A stretch of DNA of 64,000 nt from a virus. The position numbers and the translations under genes were made by a program. The stretch lies in the IMG/VR virus record IMGVR_UViG_3300042445_001604, positions 19,367 through 83,366 of that record, one strand, 5' to 3'. Under the pieces are notes generated by a model, which was not told the origin of the DNA, did not search any database, and worked only from the letters and a program-made list of their open reading frames with translations. Of this stretch, positions 4,789-61,571 are shown in pieces. Every line of letters begins with the position of its first letter. Within the stretch, counting starts at the first letter, position 1.

Positions 4789-5856
4789 TTAGGAGGTCGG
4801 GTCTTCCACGGAGTTGATGATGTAATCGATGGGGTTGTCAGCGTTGTACTCGAGGTTACCGGGTACGTTGAAGTCATCGTTGAGGTTGACATCGTCCGCG
4901 TCAGGCAATGCGAGCGTTGCGACCTCGACGTACTGACGTGCAGCGGCAGCCAGACCAGAAGCAGGCGCGTTCGAGGAGATTATGCTTCCCGAACGAGCGA
5001 AACTGAAGGTGTCGGTGGTTACCTGAGTGATGGTCTGAACACCATTGAGGGCAGCGTTGCAACCAGAAACGGTAACAACCTGTCCAACCTTGAATCCGTG
5101 TGCAGCAGAGGTGAGCGTACCCAAAATCGCGGTTGCAGCCTCGTTAGAGACAGTTTTCGTCGAAGCATCGTACCACTGGTAGAAGCCCTTGACTCCAGTA
5201 GGTGCCCAGTCCGAACGAGCGTACGAATAGGGGCGCTCTGAAGCAACAGGGAATTCCCAGCGTCCGTCGAGTCCGTCTCCGAACAACGAGTTTCCGAGTC
5301 CGTAGCCTTCGAAGGTGTTGGCGAGCATGCCGTTTTCGATAACACGGTCACCCGACTGACGCATCTTGACGTACGGGAAGACCCAGTGGAAGTAGGGGTT
5401 GTCCTCGTCCTTCTTGCCACCCTTGATGGCGAACGACCAAGCCTCAATGGCAACACCGTTACCAGCAGGGTCGTCTCCAACGCCGGGCGAAGCCCAACCA
5501 ATCGAGAGGGTCGAAGCAGCCGAGTTGGCAAGCGACGAACCGTAGTTCTTGCGGAGCAAGAGACCACCCGAGAGAAGGTTGGTGAGTTCGGGGTCGGGCT
5601 CACAGATGGCGAGTTCCATCGTGATTCGCTTGAGTGTGTCAGGGGCCTTGTAAGAAACACAGATGGCTCCATTAGCGCTCTTTTCCGTCATCTCGTCGCC
5701 CTCTTCATATTCGGGGGTAAACGAGAGACGCATGAATGCCGAGGTGACATACGAGTCACCAGGGTTGTTCAGCAGTGCACCAGTCGAGTCAAGGCGGGTA
5801 ACGCGAATTGACACACCCTGAATGCTGGCTGCATATTCCTGAGTTGCAGTAGCCAT
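4789..5856 (-). CDS. Major tail protein (tube)
   Basis: 355 residues. The N-terminal 200 residues have the strand-rich pattern of siphovirus tube proteins, with RLSFTPEYEEGDEMTEKSANG early and PYVKMRQSGDRVIENGMLA near residue 165. Residues 240-300 hold an extra small beta domain with the signature SAAHGFKVGQVVTVSGC, also found inside the neighbouring 365-residue capsid-type protein. A terminator-like hairpin follows the gene, consistent with a high-abundance product. Confidence 0.85.
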   Translation of the reverse strand: MATATQEYAASIQGVSIRVTRLDSTGALLNNPGDSYVTSAFMRLSFTPEYEEGDEMTEKSANGAICVSYKAPDTLKRITMELAICEPDPELTNLLSGGLLLRKNYGSSLANSAASTLSIGWASPGVGDDPAGNGVAIEAWSFAIKGGKKDEDNPYFHWVFPYVKMRQSGDRVIENGMLANTFEGYGLGNSLFGDGLDGRWEFPVASERPYSYARSDWAPTGVKGFYQWYDASTKTVSNEAATAILGTLTSAAHGFKVGQVVTVSGCNAALNGVQTITQVTTDTFSFARSGSIISSNAPASGLAAAARQYVEVATLALPDADDVNLNDDFNVPGNLEYNADNPIDYIINSVEDPTS

Positions 5857-12100: not shown

Positions 12101-15100
12101 CTCAGGGATTACGAGAGGAATGTAGAAGCGTGCGCCCCCACTCATTTGACCGCCAGCAACAAGCGTGCTTGCCTCACCCTTTGACGACTTAGGGTGGCTT
12201 GCAGGAAGCAGGTCGTTGTCAGTCGTGTACTTCTTGTTCTTGGGCGAACCAGACTTGAGAAGGTGCAGGTAGGCGTTGACACGGGCCATTGCCCACGAGT
12301 TGCGGTTCTGGTCGGGGCGGTGGCTGGTCGAGAATGCTCCAGCACCACGGCGATAAACTGCCTTAAGAGTGGTGATGCTGGTCTTACGTCCAGTGTCAGC
12401 CTTCTTGTTGTGCTCCGTGACCTTCTTGCTGAGCGACTTCTCGATGGCGTCGGTGAAAGTTACACCCTTACCAGTGCCAGCAGAGCCCTTTTTGTTCTTG
12501 TCGGAACCCTTGATGCGGTCCTTCTTGGGGGCTGGCTTTGAGCCTGCAGTAGCAGTAACTCCCATGCTCTTATAGACCTTGGCCTTGATGGTCATTTCCC
12601 CACCTATGCGACGCGCAACTGAGCGGTGGTGTCCATCGATAATCTCAGGCTCTCCGTCTTCGTCAATCCAAACCTTGATTGGCTTGTCTGAGTTGAGAAC
12701 TTCTTCTACTCGCCTCATGTTAACCGTGCTCTGAGTAGGAACAAGGTCAGACAACGCAATCTCGTCTTCGTAGTCTTCCTCGGCCTCGTCGGCGTAGTCT
12801 TTGACACTTTCTGGGAGGTCATAAGCAGGCTTAGCAAAGAACTCATCGACACCGACATTTACGTCATCGCCAACCTGATAAGTTGCACCTGCTGTAATAG
12901 GTCCACCAACAGCCCATGCGTTGCAGGTACGTGAGGCGGCGCACTTGAAGTCGAGTGCTTCGCAATAGCCGAGTTCTGCCTGAGAGATTGCAGCGTCTGC
13001 ATCAATCTCCTGAGACCCGCCCTGCTCAATACCCGTGGAGATGCAGTCCAGCATTTGCGGAGTGCGAATAAAGAAGACGCAGTTACCGCAGACGCTCTTT
13101 TTTGCTTCTTCCGAAGAAGTCTTCCACTTGTCTGCTTTTTCCTGCCAGAAGTCATCATTCGGCTCCATCGGGTTGAGGGGGCCGTAACCGACGTTATCAA
13201 TAGCGTTCTGACGGTTCTTGAGGTTGAGTTCAATGTTCTGCGTGGCAGGAGGACATGTTTCCCCGTCGACTGCTGCAGTCAAAGGCATGTCCTCGAGGAG
13301 GAGGTCGGTCTCAGGGCTGTACCCAAGGTCAGTGTTGGTCCGACCAGCAATAAAGTTCACCTTGTCGATGGCATCCTGACGACGAGCGCTGAGAACCATC
13401 AGAGTGTTGATTTCATCCGAATCACGGAGAACATCAGCACTGAACATACGACCGTCGACCTCTTGGTACGAAAGTTCGCGGTTACGCTTGTCTCCGGGCC
13501 ACATGCCGTTCATTTCCTTGTGACGGAGAGCACAGTAACCCTTTGAGCGAGCACCGAGATATTTCTTGAGGTTGCGGACACAGCGAGTCCAGTCACCAGG
13601 AGTTCCCCAGCGAATCTTAAGACCACCCTTGCCGACAGTCCAGTACTTGCGAAGTTCTTCAGCATTGCCCTTGTTACGGTCAAGACCGCCCGCTGCTACC
13701 AGAGCCGAGAAGTCATACTTCTCACCAAGAAGAACTGCAACAGCAAAGTCGAGGCTGTAACCAGATGCGGTAACAGGTACTTCTTCCTTTGCACTCTCGC
13801 CAGTCTCCTGCGACATGTCAACCTGCTTGAGAACGTCGTTGAGGACGGTCTCGTCAAGCGGAACAACGGGGGGAGGTGTAGCCGAGTTGAGGTCAGAAAG
13901 AGTCTGCACATCCTTAACCCACGCTCCCTGCTGACGAGTCCACACCATTGGAGCAGTCGACTTCGAATTCTCAGGAATAAGAACCGACAACTGCATAACA
14001 GCACGGGGGTCATCAGGAGAGACAATAGCCATATAGATAGGCTGAACATCCGTGGTTTCGGGAGTGAGTTCTACGGCTTGGTCACCAGCAGAAGTAATCG
14101 GGTTGTACCAGATTGAACCATTTCCGCCAGAAGCCCTGTCCTGCTTCTTCAGCCAGTTCTTAAGAAGTGGGTGCTTATAGGCGTCAACAGAAAGTTTCTG
14201 TCCAGCAGCCTTCTCCAACTTCCGACCAGCAGGGCCGACGTCAGTAGAACTTGACGGAGTACGAGAATCTACTGGAGCAGTTGGAGCATAGTCCCTGAAC
14301 TGTGCACGCTGAGAAGAAACCCACGAAGGCCAATCAGCGAGCATGTTATGCAAGTCAGCAGGAGTAAGTGCAGGAAGAGTCCCTGGCAGTTGAGCAATCG
14401 GTCGCCCCATCGGGGTACGAGGCTCGCCAACAATTCCAGAAAGGTCAAGCGGGTTGTACGTGTCGGGAAGAGGAGTGGGAGTAGTTGGGTAGACGTCCTG
14501 TCGTGGTTCGCGCACCTGTTGTCCAGCAACTCGAACAGTGCTTCCGTCGTCAAGTTTGACATTGACAGTTCCAGTGGCACGGTCTGTGCTGGTGATGTTT
14601 CCCTGCTTGGAGTTATCTCCGCCCACGGCAACGCGGTCACCAGTCTTTGCAAACTGCCCCGAAGCGTTACGAACCTGACTTTGAGCAGCCTTGGCGCGTT
14701 CTTCGGGAGTGTACTCGGCATTAGCCTTAGTGGTGTCACCAGCAGCAGTCATCGCAAGGTTGACAATGTTCCAGTCAATCTCGGGAAGAGCGTCCATCGC
14801 CATACGGGCTTCTTCTTCGCCATCGTCAAGGTCTTCGACGGAAACAGTGCGGAACGGGTCCTCTTGGAAAAGAGCAGCAATGGTGATTGCAGATTCTGGG
14901 TCAATTGTGACGTGAGTCTTCTCGACATAGTCGTCTGCCCCGTCAAGGTCAGTGTCACGAGCCCAAATATCTGCGTGCATGCTACCGAGGTCATCCCACG
15001 AGCCGTTGTCCCACACGTAGACGTTTCCGTCATCGTCAATCTTGTAGAGACGGTCGATTCCCGAGCCGTCAAGACGGACACGAGCAATAAAGTCAGGGGC

Positions 15101-15760
15101 GTACACATCGTCACGACCGAAGTCGTTGATGTCGCCAACATACTGGTCGTTGTACGCCTGTGCGTCAGGGACAGCCTCGTATGTGGGAAGTGTGTAGCCG
15201 TCAGCAGTAATCGCCTTCTTATTTTCAGACTCGACAATTGCGGACGCCCAACGCTGACCAGCGTCGCCACCCCACAGAGCCCATGCGATACGTCCGTTCG
15301 AGGGGAAGCCGTCTTCCTTCGGGCTCCAGCCCTTACCCTTCTTGTCAACTTCGTGACGAGGGAAATACTTAGCAATGTGACGAACCTTCTCGAGGCCAAT
15401 CTGTCCACCCTTAGCAAGAGTGCGAGCAGAGTTGAGGCCAACAGGCGTCCCACCACGGTTATTCTTCTTGCGCCATTCAAGAGCCTTCTTGGCTTCAGAC
15501 TGGACGCCAGACGGGATAGTGTACTTGCGACCTGATGACGCTATAACACCAATATCCAACATAGAGAGAGACGCTTCAGCAAGTTCTACCGCCGAATCGG
15601 GAACTGGAATGTCGTGCTCAGAAATGCTCCAAGATTGTTCTGAAGACAACACATCAGTGCGCCCAGTCTTGAGGACCATGTTCAGAGCAGGGTCAATGAT
15701 GGCACCATTGCGCTCATCAGCGAAGAAAAGAAGGCTTCCGTTGCTTCCTACGTATTCCAC
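9110..15760 (-). CDS. Giant capsid maturation protein: prohead protease fused to Dps-like and several capsid-associated domains
   Basis: 2216 residues. Recognisable parts in order: a capsid-associated helical module (about 80-190); a module with KIRWGTPGDWTRCVRN and NGMWPGD (715-757); a Cys-rich module like high-potential iron-sulfur proteins (871-950); a ParB-like segment with IIDGHHRSVARR (1005-1065); a module with LKAVYRRGAGAFS (1105-1187); a U35/S78-type prohead protease (1205-1360, likely His1265 and Ser1302); its usual companion domain (1405-1560); a Dps/ferritin-like domain (1640-1810) with GHHWNVEG and downstream His, Asp and Glu ligands; a basic module with ALPDGAYPI (1848-1920); and a helical C-terminus. 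GTG start. Domain identities are from motif recognition only. It likely matures the capsid, with several modules packaged in the head. Confidence 0.8.
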   Translation of the reverse strand: MEYVGSNGSLLFFADERNGAIIDPALNMVLKTGRTDVLSSEQSWSISEHDIPVPDSAVELAEASLSMLDIGVIASSGRKYTIPSGVQSEAKKALEWRKKNNRGGTPVGLNSARTLAKGGQIGLEKVRHIAKYFPRHEVDKKGKGWSPKEDGFPSNGRIAWALWGGDAGQRWASAIVESENKKAITADGYTLPTYEAVPDAQAYNDQYVGDINDFGRDDVYAPDFIARVRLDGSGIDRLYKIDDDGNVYVWDNGSWDDLGSMHADIWARDTDLDGADDYVEKTHVTIDPESAITIAALFQEDPFRTVSVEDLDDGEEEARMAMDALPEIDWNIVNLAMTAAGDTTKANAEYTPEERAKAAQSQVRNASGQFAKTGDRVAVGGDNSKQGNITSTDRATGTVNVKLDDGSTVRVAGQQVREPRQDVYPTTPTPLPDTYNPLDLSGIVGEPRTPMGRPIAQLPGTLPALTPADLHNMLADWPSWVSSQRAQFRDYAPTAPVDSRTPSSSTDVGPAGRKLEKAAGQKLSVDAYKHPLLKNWLKKQDRASGGNGSIWYNPITSAGDQAVELTPETTDVQPIYMAIVSPDDPRAVMQLSVLIPENSKSTAPMVWTRQQGAWVKDVQTLSDLNSATPPPVVPLDETVLNDVLKQVDMSQETGESAKEEVPVTASGYSLDFAVAVLLGEKYDFSALVAAGGLDRNKGNAEELRKYWTVGKGGLKIRWGTPGDWTRCVRNLKKYLGARSKGYCALRHKEMNGMWPGDKRNRELSYQEVDGRMFSADVLRDSDEINTLMVLSARRQDAIDKVNFIAGRTNTDLGYSPETDLLLEDMPLTAAVDGETCPPATQNIELNLKNRQNAIDNVGYGPLNPMEPNDDFWQEKADKWKTSSEEAKKSVCGNCVFFIRTPQMLDCISTGIEQGGSQEIDADAAISQAELGYCEALDFKCAASRTCNAWAVGGPITAGATYQVGDDVNVGVDEFFAKPAYDLPESVKDYADEAEEDYEDEIALSDLVPTQSTVNMRRVEEVLNSDKPIKVWIDEDGEPEIIDGHHRSVARRIGGEMTIKAKVYKSMGVTATAGSKPAPKKDRIKGSDKNKKGSAGTGKGVTFTDAIEKSLSKKVTEHNKKADTGRKTSITTLKAVYRRGAGAFSTSHRPDQNRNSWAMARVNAYLHLLKSGSPKNKKYTTDNDLLPASHPKSSKGEASTLVAGGQMSGGARFYIPLVIPEGMESGDGRMFTKGAIELRELPLPLLWQYKTGDGHDGSVVVGRIDHMERVEGGIGNAFGVFDTGAYGREAERLVRNGFISGVSADMDRFEAEEDEDKEAAAKDSGKKKIKKSRININKARVMAVTIVPKPAFQECKIYMPDNGDEFAPEEQIMQDGIYTDEVDPQDAAAIMACGLVASAIPVSPPKDWFTDPKLGKATPLTVDDEGRVFGHIASWSTSHIGLSNGVKPPRSKSKYGYFHTGVCRTAEGADIPVGQLTLAGGHASLYASAADAVKHYDDTASAVADVHAGEDRFGIWVAGALRPGVQPEQIRTLRASAPSGDWRPIGGSLELVAVCQVNVPGFPIARAMVASGQVTALVAAGAATLARMKADPMADLNSRIAKLEKLTLSDKISELTARVKGAEFNYSYVQESESNSYSHGNIALADTLKDLLADVVAFAHRAQGHHWNVEGANFPEYHRLFGKIYEDVSASADPIAEGIRVLGHVAPFDIEDFANNTDIENRPLKDAMCQTMSYDLSIGNGIIIDKMKMAFDVANSSNQQGLADLIAGRIEAHQRWQWQLMVAIAPHYEEAYSEGHEYQDGQDAYMVYETVFADLNKSGVLEAIVASVESTDELVESFDAVMQFAEFSPAQRKNLAKKGEALPDGAYPIRNEGDLKNAIKAFGRAKDSERGEVKKHIIKRARSLKKPDLIPETWIKKAMTASADLDRMREKLAEFDNLGAVSETDPKKASSGIATSQLPLELSNEEFEAFASSVDAELEKLVKKVVPVPGQAIDRAISEVDQPTPAPAPQTQAPQNEAKAPAEGQEIVAPSGEVNVEVEGTPMGEDGKYVPGKTQPRDVQGRFRLVLARLRQDLGTSGNQDVIDKIAEAENLIGNVGNYAGAVKSASDLINTIDRLDSGALNAKSVENVRATTTELGRTIANLPLPFENQATKVRFSDLPATLKSLAKDLITRVEDKIGKEEADIATKELRGFMSGSDVYNQGEVSSQFNRLLRLLT

Positions 15761-15766
15761 GATGAC

Positions 15767-16402
15767 CTACTCTACGGGGGTTACGTAGTCGGAAATTTCC
15801 TCAGCCGTGAGGTTCTTCTGGTCAAACATGTTGACCAGTTCCTCTGCGGTTTCAGGGTTCACCATGTGTGGTGTAGTCAAGTCAAAAGAGGAGTCACCTG
15901 GAGAAATAGCAAGCCAAACACCACCGACGCGCTTGTAGTTGCCAAACTCATTCATATACATGAGTCCGACGACATTGTCGTCATCATTCGTGAGGGCGTA
16001 GAACTGCTCTCCGCCGTCTTTGAAATAGTTAGCCATTGACTGTTCTCTTTCTTCCTTGGTGAGGTGGTTCTCTGGACTAATCAGAGCCTTGACGGCCTGA
16101 ACAGGCAACGAGATACCGTATTGTGATAAAGCAATCCCATCTTCTTCGAAGACAGGACGAATAGTGTAGTCACCCTCAGAAGTTGAGAATGACATCTTTT
16201 CTATGATACTACGCTCTGCGAAAGTAGGACTCTCGAATACGAGGTCTTCTCCGTCAGGAATAGCGACAGCAATGTCAGAAGTACCCGACGGAACATATGC
16301 GTAAAGAATCGGAGTTGCTTTTCCGTCGTCAGACTTACCAAGCATTCCGATGCTTGGATAGACGAGGCGTCCTTCAGGGCGCTGAGCCACCGTGTTCTCC
16401 AT
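15767..16402 (-). CDS. Hypothetical protein, 211 aa, head region
   Basis: Acidic soluble protein with no recognised domain, lying between the two giant head genes. Contains FYALTNDDDNVVGLMYMNEF near residue 140. Its stop is six bases before the 2216-residue gene. A weak ribosome site precedes the ATG. Probably a head-associated or assembly protein, from position only. Confidence 0.65.
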   Translation of the reverse strand: MENTVAQRPEGRLVYPSIGMLGKSDDGKATPILYAYVPSGTSDIAVAIPDGEDLVFESPTFAERSIIEKMSFSTSEGDYTIRPVFEEDGIALSQYGISLPVQAVKALISPENHLTKEEREQSMANYFKDGGEQFYALTNDDDNVVGLMYMNEFGNYKRVGGVWLAISPGDSSFDLTTPHMVNPETAEELVNMFDQKNLTAEEISDYVTPVE

Positions 16403-31260: not shown

Positions 31261-32670
31261 CTACCGCGAGCCGAAAATACGCCCGCCCGTACGCCCACCG
31301 CGTCCGAGCGTAATGCGCCGTCCCGCGACAGACTTAGCCGTAATGTTCCCGCCCAAAAACCCAGCGGGTGGTTTGATGAGCAACGCCGTGAGCGCGTGAA
31401 CGAGCGCGTCCACGCGGTCTGGGGATTTTCCCTCGCCCGGTATCCACGACGTCATTTGACTTTCTAGTTCCGCGAGAAACCCTATGTGATGTACGCGCCC
31501 TTGTTCGTAGGCGAGCGTAATCGGTTCTGCCCTCAACGCTTTTCCGTACTTCGAGTGAACTTCCAACACTTGGATTGTCGGGTCGATTGTTTGGATTGCG
31601 TTACGCACTAACGCCCCACCTTGATTGACTTCTGCGACGACGGGGCAACCCCACTTGCGAGCCATTGCCACAACCCGTTCTGCCCACACCGTAGGCGAGC
31701 CAAGCACCGAAGCGTCCTCAATTACCCACGATTGACGTTTGTATAGGTCGCGTTCACCCGTGCTTGCGACGACGACGATACCGCACTCATCACGGGGATT
31801 TTCAGCAACCGACGGGTCTACGCCGATTACGCGCAACGGTACTGATGACGGCATACCGTTTTGACGATTGTTTTCGATTAGTTCGTCCGTCCACAACGCG
31901 CCCTCAACCGCGTCCAACATTTCACCGTAAAGTTCTTGACGGGCTAACCGCGTACCTTCGTAAACGCCCGTGATTGCGTCTATGTATGATGACGACAAGT
32001 TGCCCGCGTTATCCATTGTTGAGCCACGCGATACCCAGATTTTTCCTGTCTTGTCCGCTTCGCCCAACAAGTCATATAAAAGTTTTACGCGCTTCGGCGT
32101 TGTTGTTGCCAAGATTTGTGGATTGCTTCCGAGTCGAGTAGCGACGCGCAAGTTATCCCACGACGACATTCCCGCTGCGTCTGGCGTCTGACGCCACGCT
32201 GCAACTTCGTCTGCCCACGAGTAGTTTGCTTGGACACCACGCAAGGAGTCTGGTTCATCTGCCGTGCCGAGCAACGCGACGTTTCCGTTTGGCCAGGTCA
32301 GACGGCGCTTCGACGGTTCATACAACGGCATCTCCGACGGCGGGGATACACTCATAATTCCCGAATCGCCCTCAACCAAAACGTCACGCACGTCCGCTGC
32401 GGTACGAGCAACTAAAAGGAAACGCAACTTTCCCTCTGATGTTACTCGCGCTTTTTCGCGTACCCATTCAGCAGCCGAGCGCGTCTTACCCGCGCCACGT
32501 CCTGCGAGAAACAAACCAACATTCCACGACGAATCTTTCGGCGGGATTTGTTCGGGTCGTCCCCAAAAGTCCCACGCCCATAGTAAGTTGTCTGGGTCTA
32601 TGCCCGCCATTGCTTCGGCGCGTTCTGCTTCGGGGAGTGCCGCTACGATTTGCGCGAGTGATTGTGCCAT
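31261..32670 (-). CDS. terL: Terminase large subunit
   Basis: 469 residues. The packaging motor ATPase and nuclease. Walker A LAGRGAGKTRSAAEW at about 55-69, Walker B YSWADE ending near residue 155, coupling motif ATTTPKR near 195. The C-terminal RNase H-like nuclease starts with VIGVDPS near 283 and has SPDRVDALVHAL near 430. Full length for the family. Transcribed leftward but separated from the portal by a rightward block of small genes. No small terminase is adjacent. Confidence 0.95.
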   Translation of the reverse strand: MAQSLAQIVAALPEAERAEAMAGIDPDNLLWAWDFWGRPEQIPPKDSSWNVGLFLAGRGAGKTRSAAEWVREKARVTSEGKLRFLLVARTAADVRDVLVEGDSGIMSVSPPSEMPLYEPSKRRLTWPNGNVALLGTADEPDSLRGVQANYSWADEVAAWRQTPDAAGMSSWDNLRVATRLGSNPQILATTTPKRVKLLYDLLGEADKTGKIWVSRGSTMDNAGNLSSSYIDAITGVYEGTRLARQELYGEMLDAVEGALWTDELIENNRQNGMPSSVPLRVIGVDPSVAENPRDECGIVVVASTGERDLYKRQSWVIEDASVLGSPTVWAERVVAMARKWGCPVVAEVNQGGALVRNAIQTIDPTIQVLEVHSKYGKALRAEPITLAYEQGRVHHIGFLAELESQMTSWIPGEGKSPDRVDALVHALTALLIKPPAGFLGGNITAKSVAGRRITLGRGGRTGGRIFGSR

Positions 32671-36518: not shown

Positions 36519-36614
36519 TTAGTCATTCCAAGCGTGGCCCGGAAACGCTTGCTTCATTTCGCGTTCCCAGCAAGGGAAGCACTTTCCCTCGTCGTTGTGT
36601 TCGCAGTTCGTCAT
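36519..36614 (-). CDS. Microprotein, 31 aa, Cys-containing
   Basis: MTNCEHNDEGKCFPCWERE has a CxxC-type cluster (C4, C12, C15) that may bind metal. Own promoter (TTGACA, 17, TAGACT) and AAAGGACACGC leader. Confidence 0.6.
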   Translation of the reverse strand: MTNCEHNDEGKCFPCWEREMKQAFPGHAWND

Positions 36615-36699
36615 TGCGTGTCCTTTCGTTGTGGTGTACCACCAGTCTACTACATACCTACGACATTGTCAAGTACCGACGGCGCACCCGCGCTGGGGG

Positions 36700-36718
36700 A
36701 AAGTATATGTTTTTTGAG
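36700..36718 (+). repeat. 19-bp intergenic element, copy 12
   Basis: AAAGTATATGTTTTTTGAG, just beyond the terminator of the ncRNA unit. Confidence 0.85.
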
Positions 36719-36727
36719 TACGGCGCG

Positions 36728-36893
36728 AAAAAAGAAACGCGAGAGATTTTTCTCCCGCGTTCCGATTTGTCAAGTTTAGGGTGAGCATTTGTTTCGAGCA
36801 GACGCACATACTCAGGTGCGGAGAGCCGTCTGTTATGTTGCTAAACTGTTCGGCTCTCTTACAGTTTAGGGTGGTAGCCCACACTTTGGCTAC
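36728..36893 (-). ncRNA. Putative structured ncRNA with H-type pseudoknot
   Basis: A complete transcription unit without a convincing ORF. Promoter at 36900-36928. The predicted 166-nt transcript starts with hairpin 36874-36893 (GTAGCC/GGCTAC). A pseudoknot follows: CTAAACTGT (36841-36849) pairs with ACAGTTTAG (36861-36869), and GAGAGCCG (36821-36828) pairs with CGGCTCTC (36851-36858), so the two perfect stems interleave. A small stem (CGCAC 36803-36807 / GTGCG 36816-36820) and a terminator hairpin with T-run (36728-36760) complete it. CCCTAAAC occurs twice. No known ncRNA family recognised. Confidence 0.7.
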
Positions 36894-36899
36894 ATCTAA

Positions 36900-36928
36900 A
36901 TACTAGCACACGGCAATCCAAATGTCAA
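36900..36928 (-). promoter_or_regulatory. Promoter of the putative ncRNA
   Basis: TTGACA, 17 bases, TAGTAT. It starts transcription about at the base of the first hairpin. Confidence 0.8.
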
Positions 36929-36929
36929 G

Positions 36930-37217
36930 TTAGGACATTGGTGGTGTCGTCGTCAAGTCGTAGTTTCGGAAACGGACTTCGTGCGCGAACAACATCACTT
37001 CGGGATTTACGGTGGAGATAGTCGCAATCTCAACTATGTCGCCCTGAACCATATGCTTCACGACTTCCCGTGACAACGCTCGTGCTGGCGCGACAAAAAA
37101 CTTCCGCCCCTTTTCGTCCGCCATAAAGAATGAACCGACGAACCCAATGGTCATTGGATTTCGTAGCACTCGCCCCGCGAGTATGCTGGTCTTTTGGTCT
37201 GCTGAGTATTTTGCCAT
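36930..37217 (-). CDS. Hypothetical protein, 95 aa, leaderless
   Basis: Beta-rich (small barrel-like pattern: TIGFVGSFFMADEKGRKFFV, MVQGDIVEIATIST, EVMLFAHEVRFRNYDL). Could be an OB/Sm-like fold but no family is assigned. ATG 37217 lies six bases after TACCGT with TTGACA 17 bases further upstream and no ribosome site. Confidence 0.7.
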   Translation of the reverse strand: MAKYSADQKTSILAGRVLRNPMTIGFVGSFFMADEKGRKFFVAPARALSREVVKHMVQGDIVEIATISTVNPEVMLFAHEVRFRNYDLTTTPPMS

Positions 37218-37252
37218 ACCCCGACGGTACAACATCACCCGCGCATTGTCAA
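37218..37252 (-). promoter_or_regulatory. Leaderless promoter of 36930 gene
   Basis: TTGACA, 17 bases, TACCGT, six bases, ATG. Confidence 0.75.
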
Positions 37253-37263
37253 GCCCCGCGTTA

Positions 37264-37282
37264 CTCAAAAAAACTATACTTT
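37264..37282 (-). repeat. 19-bp intergenic element, copy 13
   Basis: Reads AAAGTATAGTTTTTTTGAG on the minus strand. Confidence 0.8.
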
Positions 37283-39870: not shown

Positions 39871-40037
39871 TGTGGTAGTGCCTTTCGTTTGAGGGAGAGC
39901 CAATCTCGCCCTGTGATATCAGTATACATACGACCACGGACATTGTCAAGTCGAAACGCAAAAAACTTTTTTTATTTTTGACTTGACTTTGTCCGAGGAC
40001 TATGATACACTTATGGAACAACGACGAAAGGGAAAAA

Positions 40038-42394: not shown

Positions 42395-42560
42395 TCTGTA
42401 TTTCCTTTCGTTGAGGGAGAGCCAATCTCGCCCTATGTCATTGAGTTTAGCGTATGTCGTTTTGTTTGTCAAGTCCATTCGCAAACTTTCTTTATTGAGT
42501 TATGTCGAAAGTCTATCCGCGACCACGGACACGAAACTCGACCGCGCACGGCGACGGCGA

Positions 42561-54429: not shown

Positions 54430-54648
54430 CTATCTTTCCTTGAAGTTCAAGAGCGGTGTGATGCAGAGTCCACATACATGCTGAAGTTCATCTGCCTCAT
54501 TCAGGATAGTAGCGTACGGATAATATAATGTCAAGTTGCATGTGGCGCATCGGTCTTCAAGGACATCGGGCTGTTCGAGTCCACCGTTCATATACATCTG
54601 ACGCTCGTGAGGTTCACGAACGTAGAAGAGTTCAAAAGTTTCTATCAT
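54430..54648 (-). CDS. Small zinc-ribbon protein, 72 aa
   Basis: CATCNLTLYY and CGLCITPL give a CxxC-x-CxxC ribbon. No ribosome site; TAAGTT ends six bases before ATG 54648, so it may be leaderless with a weak -35. Confidence 0.7.
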   Translation of the reverse strand: MIETFELFYVREPHERQMYMNGGLEQPDVLEDRCATCNLTLYYPYATILNEADELQHVCGLCITPLLNFKER

Positions 54649-60968: not shown

Positions 60969-61571
60969 TTAGTCTTCTGAGTCGTTTTTAGCCGTTTTGA
61001 AGACCTTGATAGCGATTTTATCGGAGGCAATTGCCAAGAGAACGGGTGCGCCACCAGAGATAACGGCACCAATAATCAACTGCAACTGGTCAGTGGCCGT
61101 CGTCACAACAAAAGTGTGGGCTACGTTGGCAAAGGTCGACACAAGAGTAAATGCGCCAATCGCCAACCATGTTCCCCAGACCTTTTCACCACGTTCACGT
61201 TCAATGAACAAGGACAAGGTGAATGCAATAATTGCCACGTCGAGCATCAGTGGCACAGCAAACTGCAAAGTCGGGTTTGGTCCGACTGCCCACTCGGCTG
61301 CTTCGTAGATACCAAAGAAGGATACGTAGAAGGATGACGCAGCCATTGTGGCAATCAGCACCAGCAGGAGGGATAGCACAAACTGGTTGTCAGCATGGAA
61401 TCTCTTGGCGCGTTTACGGTTAGTAGACGGCTTTGAGGGGAATACTGCCTGAATCGGCGTCTCGATACCAGGAATCACATTGGCGGTTCCTGTTACAGGA
61501 GCAGGCGGTGCGGGAGGAATCCATGCACCGTCTGGGGCAAAGGTAAGTTCATTTCGGTATTCATCTGTCAT
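60969..61571 (-). CDS. DUF2637-like membrane protein, leaderless
   Basis: 200 residues. Pro-rich cytoplasmic N-terminus, a basic stretch (NRKRAKRFHADN), then four membrane helices with PLMLDVAIIAFTLSLFIERE and AIGAFTLVSTFANVAHTF, the layout of actinobacterial DUF2637/Spd-type proteins linked to plasmid transfer and phages. Leaderless from TAGAAT six bases before the ATG. Function unknown. Confidence 0.75.
   Translation of the reverse strand: MTDEYRNELTFAPDGAWIPPAPPAPVTGTANVIPGIETPIQAVFPSKPSTNRKRAKRFHADNQFVLSLLLVLIATMAASSFYVSFFGIYEAAEWAVGPNPTLQFAVPLMLDVAIIAFTLSLFIERERGEKVWGTWLAIGAFTLVSTFANVAHTFVVTTATDQLQLIIGAVISGGAPVLLAIASDKIAIKVFKTAKNDSED

Follow-up and report, generated by a model that had tools for sequence, protein, structure and literature searches.

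The locus considered here poses the question of what a phage might make from a promoter–terminator unit in which no reading frame looks coding, and whether two interleaved stems in that unit would fold into a functional RNA. It is situated in the window, by which we mean the whole 64-kb stretch of DNA that was analyzed (bases 19367–83366 within an 83,366-base IMG/VR virus record). The terminase encoded at 31261–32670 on the minus strand shows 73% identity to that of the Actinomycetia phage DSL-LC01, a lake phage, and ~65% identity to those of large Microbacterium phages. Judged from its sequence, the source phage is represented by an 83-kb fragment and is kin to DSL-LC01, and its hosts are predicted to be freshwater-type actinobacteria.

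A promoter-to-terminator unit in a region of small cassettes

The minus strand of the window carries virion-type genes up to ~27 kb, beyond which a region of small genes extends to ~50 kb. Between 28 and 50 kb these are organized as small cassettes, most of which possess their own promoter, and a TTGACA −35 element starts almost every one of them. In the cassettes other than the one under study, the promoter leads either to a GAAAGGA-type ribosome-binding site (RBS) and a start codon or to a leaderless gene: at 37252, 33592 and 33397 (all minus strand), an ATG ~6 nt past the −10 box marks apparently leaderless genes amid the RBS-led ones. The same region features a dispersed 18-bp repeat, CAAAAAA(NN)TATACTTT(T/C), with 21 copies against 0.04 expected, spread over 28935–49102 on both strands; those copies inspected closely (e.g., 36699–36716) lie between cassettes, right after a terminator. 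This repeat is possibly a repressor-binding (stoperator-like) site or a recombination site that aids cassette exchange. Additionally, an identical 20-nt leader, GGCGAGATTGGCTCTCCCTC, directly precedes the RBS of two similar genes (39891–39910 and 42413–42432, minus strand); its core is also found in both close relatives of the phage, and it is likely to be a cis-regulatory element.

The unit under study lies on the minus strand and begins with a consensus promoter, comprising a TTGACA −35 element (36923–36928), a 17-bp spacer and a TAGTAT −10 element (36900–36905) with a TG upstream. It continues with a 5′ hairpin, in which GTAGCC and GGCTAC enclose AAAGTGTG (36874–36893) and which begins at the predicted transcription start, followed in order by CACC, CTAAACTGT (36861–36869), AA, GAGAGCCG (36851–36858), A, ACAGTTTAG (36841–36849), CAACATAACAGA (36829–36840), CGGCTCTC (36821–36828), ~57 nt of further sequence and an intrinsic terminator (36728–36763) with a 13-pair stem (36763–36734) and a TTTTTT run. 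The segments 36861–36869 and 36841–36849 are perfect complements over 9 bp (stem 1), and 36851–36858 and 36821–36828 over 8 bp (stem 2), giving the interleaved geometry of an H-type pseudoknot. Its first loop would comprise 2 nt (AA), the junction 1 nt (A) and the third loop the 12 nt of the A-rich segment 36829–36840, which crosses stem 1. All these elements, namely the promoter, the hairpin at the predicted start site, the two perfect interleaved stems and the terminator with its T-run, had been proposed by a sequence-only reading that did not state the strand outright, and each is present where it had been placed.

Two further features are less clear-cut. Right behind the pseudoknot lies a possible hairpin, CGCAC-CTGAGTAT-GTGCG (36803–36820), which competes with an alternative fold, in that the minimum free energy fold instead pairs 36814–36782. 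An 11-nt direct repeat, CACCCTAAACT, occurs once overlapping stem 1 (36863–36873) and again in the stretch ahead of the terminator (36773–36783); it is weakly significant, an equally good repeat being found in 16 of 1000 shuffles, and an extended 26-nt version was dropped, as it needs a gap. The unit is flanked upstream by a gene for a protein of about 101–112 aa without a family assignment (36930–37268, minus strand), which is kept beside the same slot in relatives, and downstream by a gene for a 31-aa protein (36519–36614, minus strand) that has its own promoter (36672–36644) and RBS.

The earlier reading had also claimed about 166 bases without a convincing ORF, and this holds: no frame of the ~165-nt transcript looks coding by codon usage or RBS. 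There is neither an RBS-led nor a leaderless start; an ATG does stand where a leaderless gene would begin, but TAG follows it immediately. No other promoter cassette in the window lacks a plausible start codon: promoter-like sites elsewhere either lead to an RBS-led or leaderless ORF or sit inside a gene. The latter is the case for a second promoter, at 54534, which seemed to have no ORF and was hence set aside.

Interleaved stems compared with chance and with known RNAs

In 2.56 Mb of shuffled sequence (20 shuffles of the window, both strands), two perfect stems in H-type arrangement, each of 7 bp or more, arose three times, and stems that together made up 17 bp or more arose once. When the 165-nt unit was shuffled 3000 times, interleaved stems totaling 17 bp or more never appeared, even under looser loop limits, and in 1.95 Mb of sequence, mostly from related phages, no other stem pair reached that total. 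As the feature was picked from a scan of 64 kb, the fair chance figure is the window-wide expectation, which is ~0.05; coincidence becomes less likely because the stems lie within the very promoter unit that lacks an ORF.

Folding of the complete unit is more favorable than that of its shuffles (z −3.9), whereas the nested-fold z without the terminator is only −1.7, which is ordinary. Given this, and given that nested-fold energies do not score interleaving, the distinctive signal is the interleaving itself. By a simple estimate that combines ViennaRNA stacking energies with a Dirks–Pierce-type penalty, the 49-nt pseudoknot would have about −20.5 kcal/mol, compared with −13.2 for the most stable nested alternative; for the whole RNA, the corresponding estimates are −58.5 kcal/mol with the pseudoknot and −52.9 nested. 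Thus, the pseudoknot is predicted to be preferred over nested folds, and the 2/1/12 loop geometry with its A-rich third loop would suit an H-type fold.

The sequence-only reading recognized no known RNA family, and Rfam searches bear this out: Rfam 15, including its pseudoknot riboswitches, tmRNA, 6S RNA and ribozymes, had no match in the window above the gathering cut-off, and on the unit at E ≤ 10 it gave matches at chance level only. Homologues of the unit were likewise not found by blastn in 50,697 phage and 72,556 plasmid records, or by pattern scans of IMG/VR (five DNA patterns) and of 84,980 species genomes (one pattern). A covariance-model search of ~90 related viral records, including DSL-LC01, also found none, with a single-sequence model that is little more sensitive than BLAST, misses distant relatives with altered stems, and has the window itself as its sole positive control. 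The pattern-scan and homology matches that were inspected proved to be coding stretches, other chance matches or, in the viral contig IMGVR_UViG_3300010268_000085, the strand complementary to the tag region of a tmRNA. That contig encodes a tRNA cluster and a tmRNA with the tag ADNSLALVA (14000–14383, minus strand). The occurrence of AACAGTTTAGCA in this tag had raised a tmRNA-like reading of the unit, which was rejected: neither ARAGORN nor Rfam detects a tmRNA in the window, and the search pattern had been chosen to include most of the letters of AACAGTTTAGCA.

Exchange of cassettes at the same slot in relatives

The unit is so far solitary, being seen in one genome, and such a one-off gene may be in decay or of recent origin. 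In the two closest relatives of the phage, L004 (IMGVR_UViG_3300032303_001548) and L003 (IMGVR_UViG_3300028394_000214), the upstream 112-aa gene is retained, the promoter keeps its position, and both the zone of the terminator and the repeat downstream (CTCAAAAAACATATACTTTC or near it) are preserved. In the same slot, L004 has a gene for a 38-aa protein and L003 one for a 39-aa protein; these are different genes with the same kind of promoter and terminator. Because the content of the slot differs among the relatives, we interpret it as a cassette site, at which the self-contained unit of the window replaced, or was replaced by, protein genes. Exchange as a unit in turn speaks for an RNA that acts in trans rather than as a leader. 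Hence, given a swapped slot, a promoter cassette that alone in the window has no ORF, and stems far above those of shuffles, the anatomy of the unit supports well the prediction of a swapped-in, stand-alone noncoding RNA gene as opposed to a cis-regulator of its neighbors.

Other units of comparable layout were seen in these phages. At 5103–5510, L004 has another promoter–terminator unit of ~380 nt without an RBS-led ORF, which is predicted to fold much more stably than its shuffles (z −3.9), shows no Rfam match and contains an open TTG frame with a weak codon score; it is possibly a second noncoding RNA cassette or a decayed gene. At 15560–15950, a related phage, L114 (IMGVR_UViG_3300032291_002123), has a tmRNA, partial in the searched stretch, and after it, on the same strand, an ORF-less promoter–terminator unit of ~235 nt.

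Candidate roles of the predicted RNA

Our leading interpretation, which we advance tentatively, is that the unit is a gene for a small, stable, structured RNA of ~165 nt that is carried in an exchangeable slot and acts in trans, with a host protein as the most likely ligand of its pseudoknot. The promoter and terminator would yield one short transcript, made during infection from a host-type promoter, as are the products of other host-takeover cassettes, with its ends capped by the 5′ and terminator hairpins. During transcription the stem 1 hairpin, with its 11-nt loop, would fold first, and the downstream arm would then pair with that loop to produce the H-type pseudoknot. This could act as a compact module for protein binding, by which a host protein, such as an RNase, a component of RNA-based defense or a translation factor, is sequestered or diverted. 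The protein-binding role is a guess, which we favor because much of the pre-terminator transcript appears to be locked in the 5′ hairpin and pseudoknot, and because no base-pairing target came to light among the phage's own initiation regions. We regard the unit as a real feature and a credible orphan phage RNA that is ordinary in kind, namely a phage small RNA.

Less probable, though still a serious contender, is a base-pairing small RNA, in which the pseudoknot and end hairpins serve only to stabilize the molecule, while base-pairing with mRNAs of the host or the phage falls to its single-stranded parts, such as the repeat copy before the terminator or the loop of the 5′ hairpin. The presence of the 11-nt repeat in two copies, one of them outside the stems, is consistent with this, as is a 14-nt perfect antisense match of AAAGTGTGGGCTAC in the 5′ hairpin within the coding sequence of a DUF2637 gene (61111–61124), which is also present in the relative G001. 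However, we estimate that ~0.1 such matches are expected by chance, the match falls in the middle of the gene, and G001 shares it although the RNA is absent there. Among the initiation regions of the phage's own genes, none pairs better with the RNA than with shuffled versions of it, 17 of 60 shuffled RNAs giving an equally good best duplex. The leader GGCGAGATTGGCTCTCCCTC was considered as a target, given its 7–9 bp pairing with the stem 1 loop, and was discarded, as its core also occurs in relatives lacking the RNA. Phage-encoded small RNAs in general, the subject of a review (PMC12197685), resemble the unit in being short promoter–terminator RNA units in phage genomes; cases taken from that review are antisense or Hfq-dependent and mostly from phages of Gram-negative hosts, and nowhere does it use the word "pseudoknot".

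Returning to the protein-binding interpretation, its most attractive special case is that the pseudoknot mimics a host type III antitoxin RNA and neutralizes the toxin, an analogy that is possible though improbable. Type III antitoxins (ToxI, CptI, TenpI) are H-type pseudoknots of 34–45 nt (PMC5086642, PMC4627078), with repeat units of 34–36 nt in ToxI and 45 nt in CptI that are arranged in tandem upstream of a terminator. In CptI, an antitoxin of solved structure, there are two duplex stems, an L1 of a single base and a long, A-rich L2 (PMC4627078); the predicted 49-nt pseudoknot of the unit, with its very short L1, long A-rich loop and partial direct repeat thereafter, bears a likeness to it. 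There is also a precedent in phage phiTE, which carries a pseudo-ToxI noncoding RNA of 1.5 repeats with a 36-nt unit and escapes by expanding these repeats (PMC3475682); like our unit, it is a phage noncoding RNA locus between protein genes, which becomes pseudoknot-forming after repeat expansion. However, whereas the phiTE repeats are ToxI-like, the RNA of the window is unlike any known antitoxin and is predicted to contain a single complete pseudoknot rather than a tandem array of pseudoknot-sized repeats, its 11-nt repeat having a 90-nt period. No toxin gene is recognized directly downstream, and Pfam and PHROGs assign none of the neighboring proteins to a toxin family; the PF13958 profile had no match in the whole contig, as was also the case in control genomes. 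Rfam detects no sequence–structure match to ToxI in the unit even at E 10. Thus, lacking the tandem array, toxin neighbor and Rfam match, the RNA is not assigned to the type III antitoxins.

Among actinobacteriophages, noncoding RNAs are also expressed from the non-RepA prophage origins of RedRock, Alma and LadyBird; in contrast to our unit, these are 0.6–0.7-kb regions beside parABS in temperate phages (PMC7157519). No ParA or ParB was found among the neighbors tested with Pfam and PHROGs, and no clear skew turn occurs at the unit.

The solitary occurrence of the unit and the differing cassette content of close relatives would also be expected if the cassette had lost its gene and two inverted repeats interleaved by accident. 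We consider such decay or chance doubtful: perfect stems unmatched in the shuffles of the unit fall within one 49-nt stretch, and the promoter and terminator around them are undamaged. The known pseudoknot riboswitches are compact and located before terminators. On account of this resemblance, a cis-acting attenuator or riboswitch could be envisaged, in which a pseudoknot aptamer and a terminator switch control the downstream 31-aa gene, all the more as the 3′ arm of stem 2 could pair with the 5′ arm of the terminator (−11.8 kcal/mol). We deem it very unlikely: the terminator hairpin is far stronger (−19.3), no riboswitch family matches, the whole unit is replaced by protein genes in relatives, and the 31-aa gene has a promoter and RBS of its own, whereas a riboswitch calls for a downstream gene without a promoter. 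The regulation of neighboring genes that the sequence-only reading had entertained is disfavored on the same grounds, the neighbors having their own promoters and the slot being exchanged as a unit. Finally, that a small protein is read from near the 5′ end, as in the leaderless ATG cassettes of this region, is scarcely credible, as the sole long open frame of the unit (GTG 36884, 71 aa) starts with a GTG without an RBS, has no stop ahead of the terminator and runs through it, and scores a codon log-odds of −0.13 against values above zero for most small genes.

In its most specific form, the protein-binding interpretation would make the unit a stand-alone pseudoknot RNA decoy that inactivates an RNA-binding host defense protein, and hence an exchangeable counter-defense cassette in actinobacterial phages, a scenario that we consider rather unlikely. 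A decoy role had likewise been raised by the sequence-only reading, and it may hold. Small accessory cassettes are where protein anti-defense genes are found, and RNAs encoded in such slots escape notice, as gene-calling programs pass over them. A clear-cut case whose fold can be tested would demonstrate that structured RNAs, too, are traded in the accessory region of these phages, and the partner of such an RNA could reveal a host RNA-binding defense.
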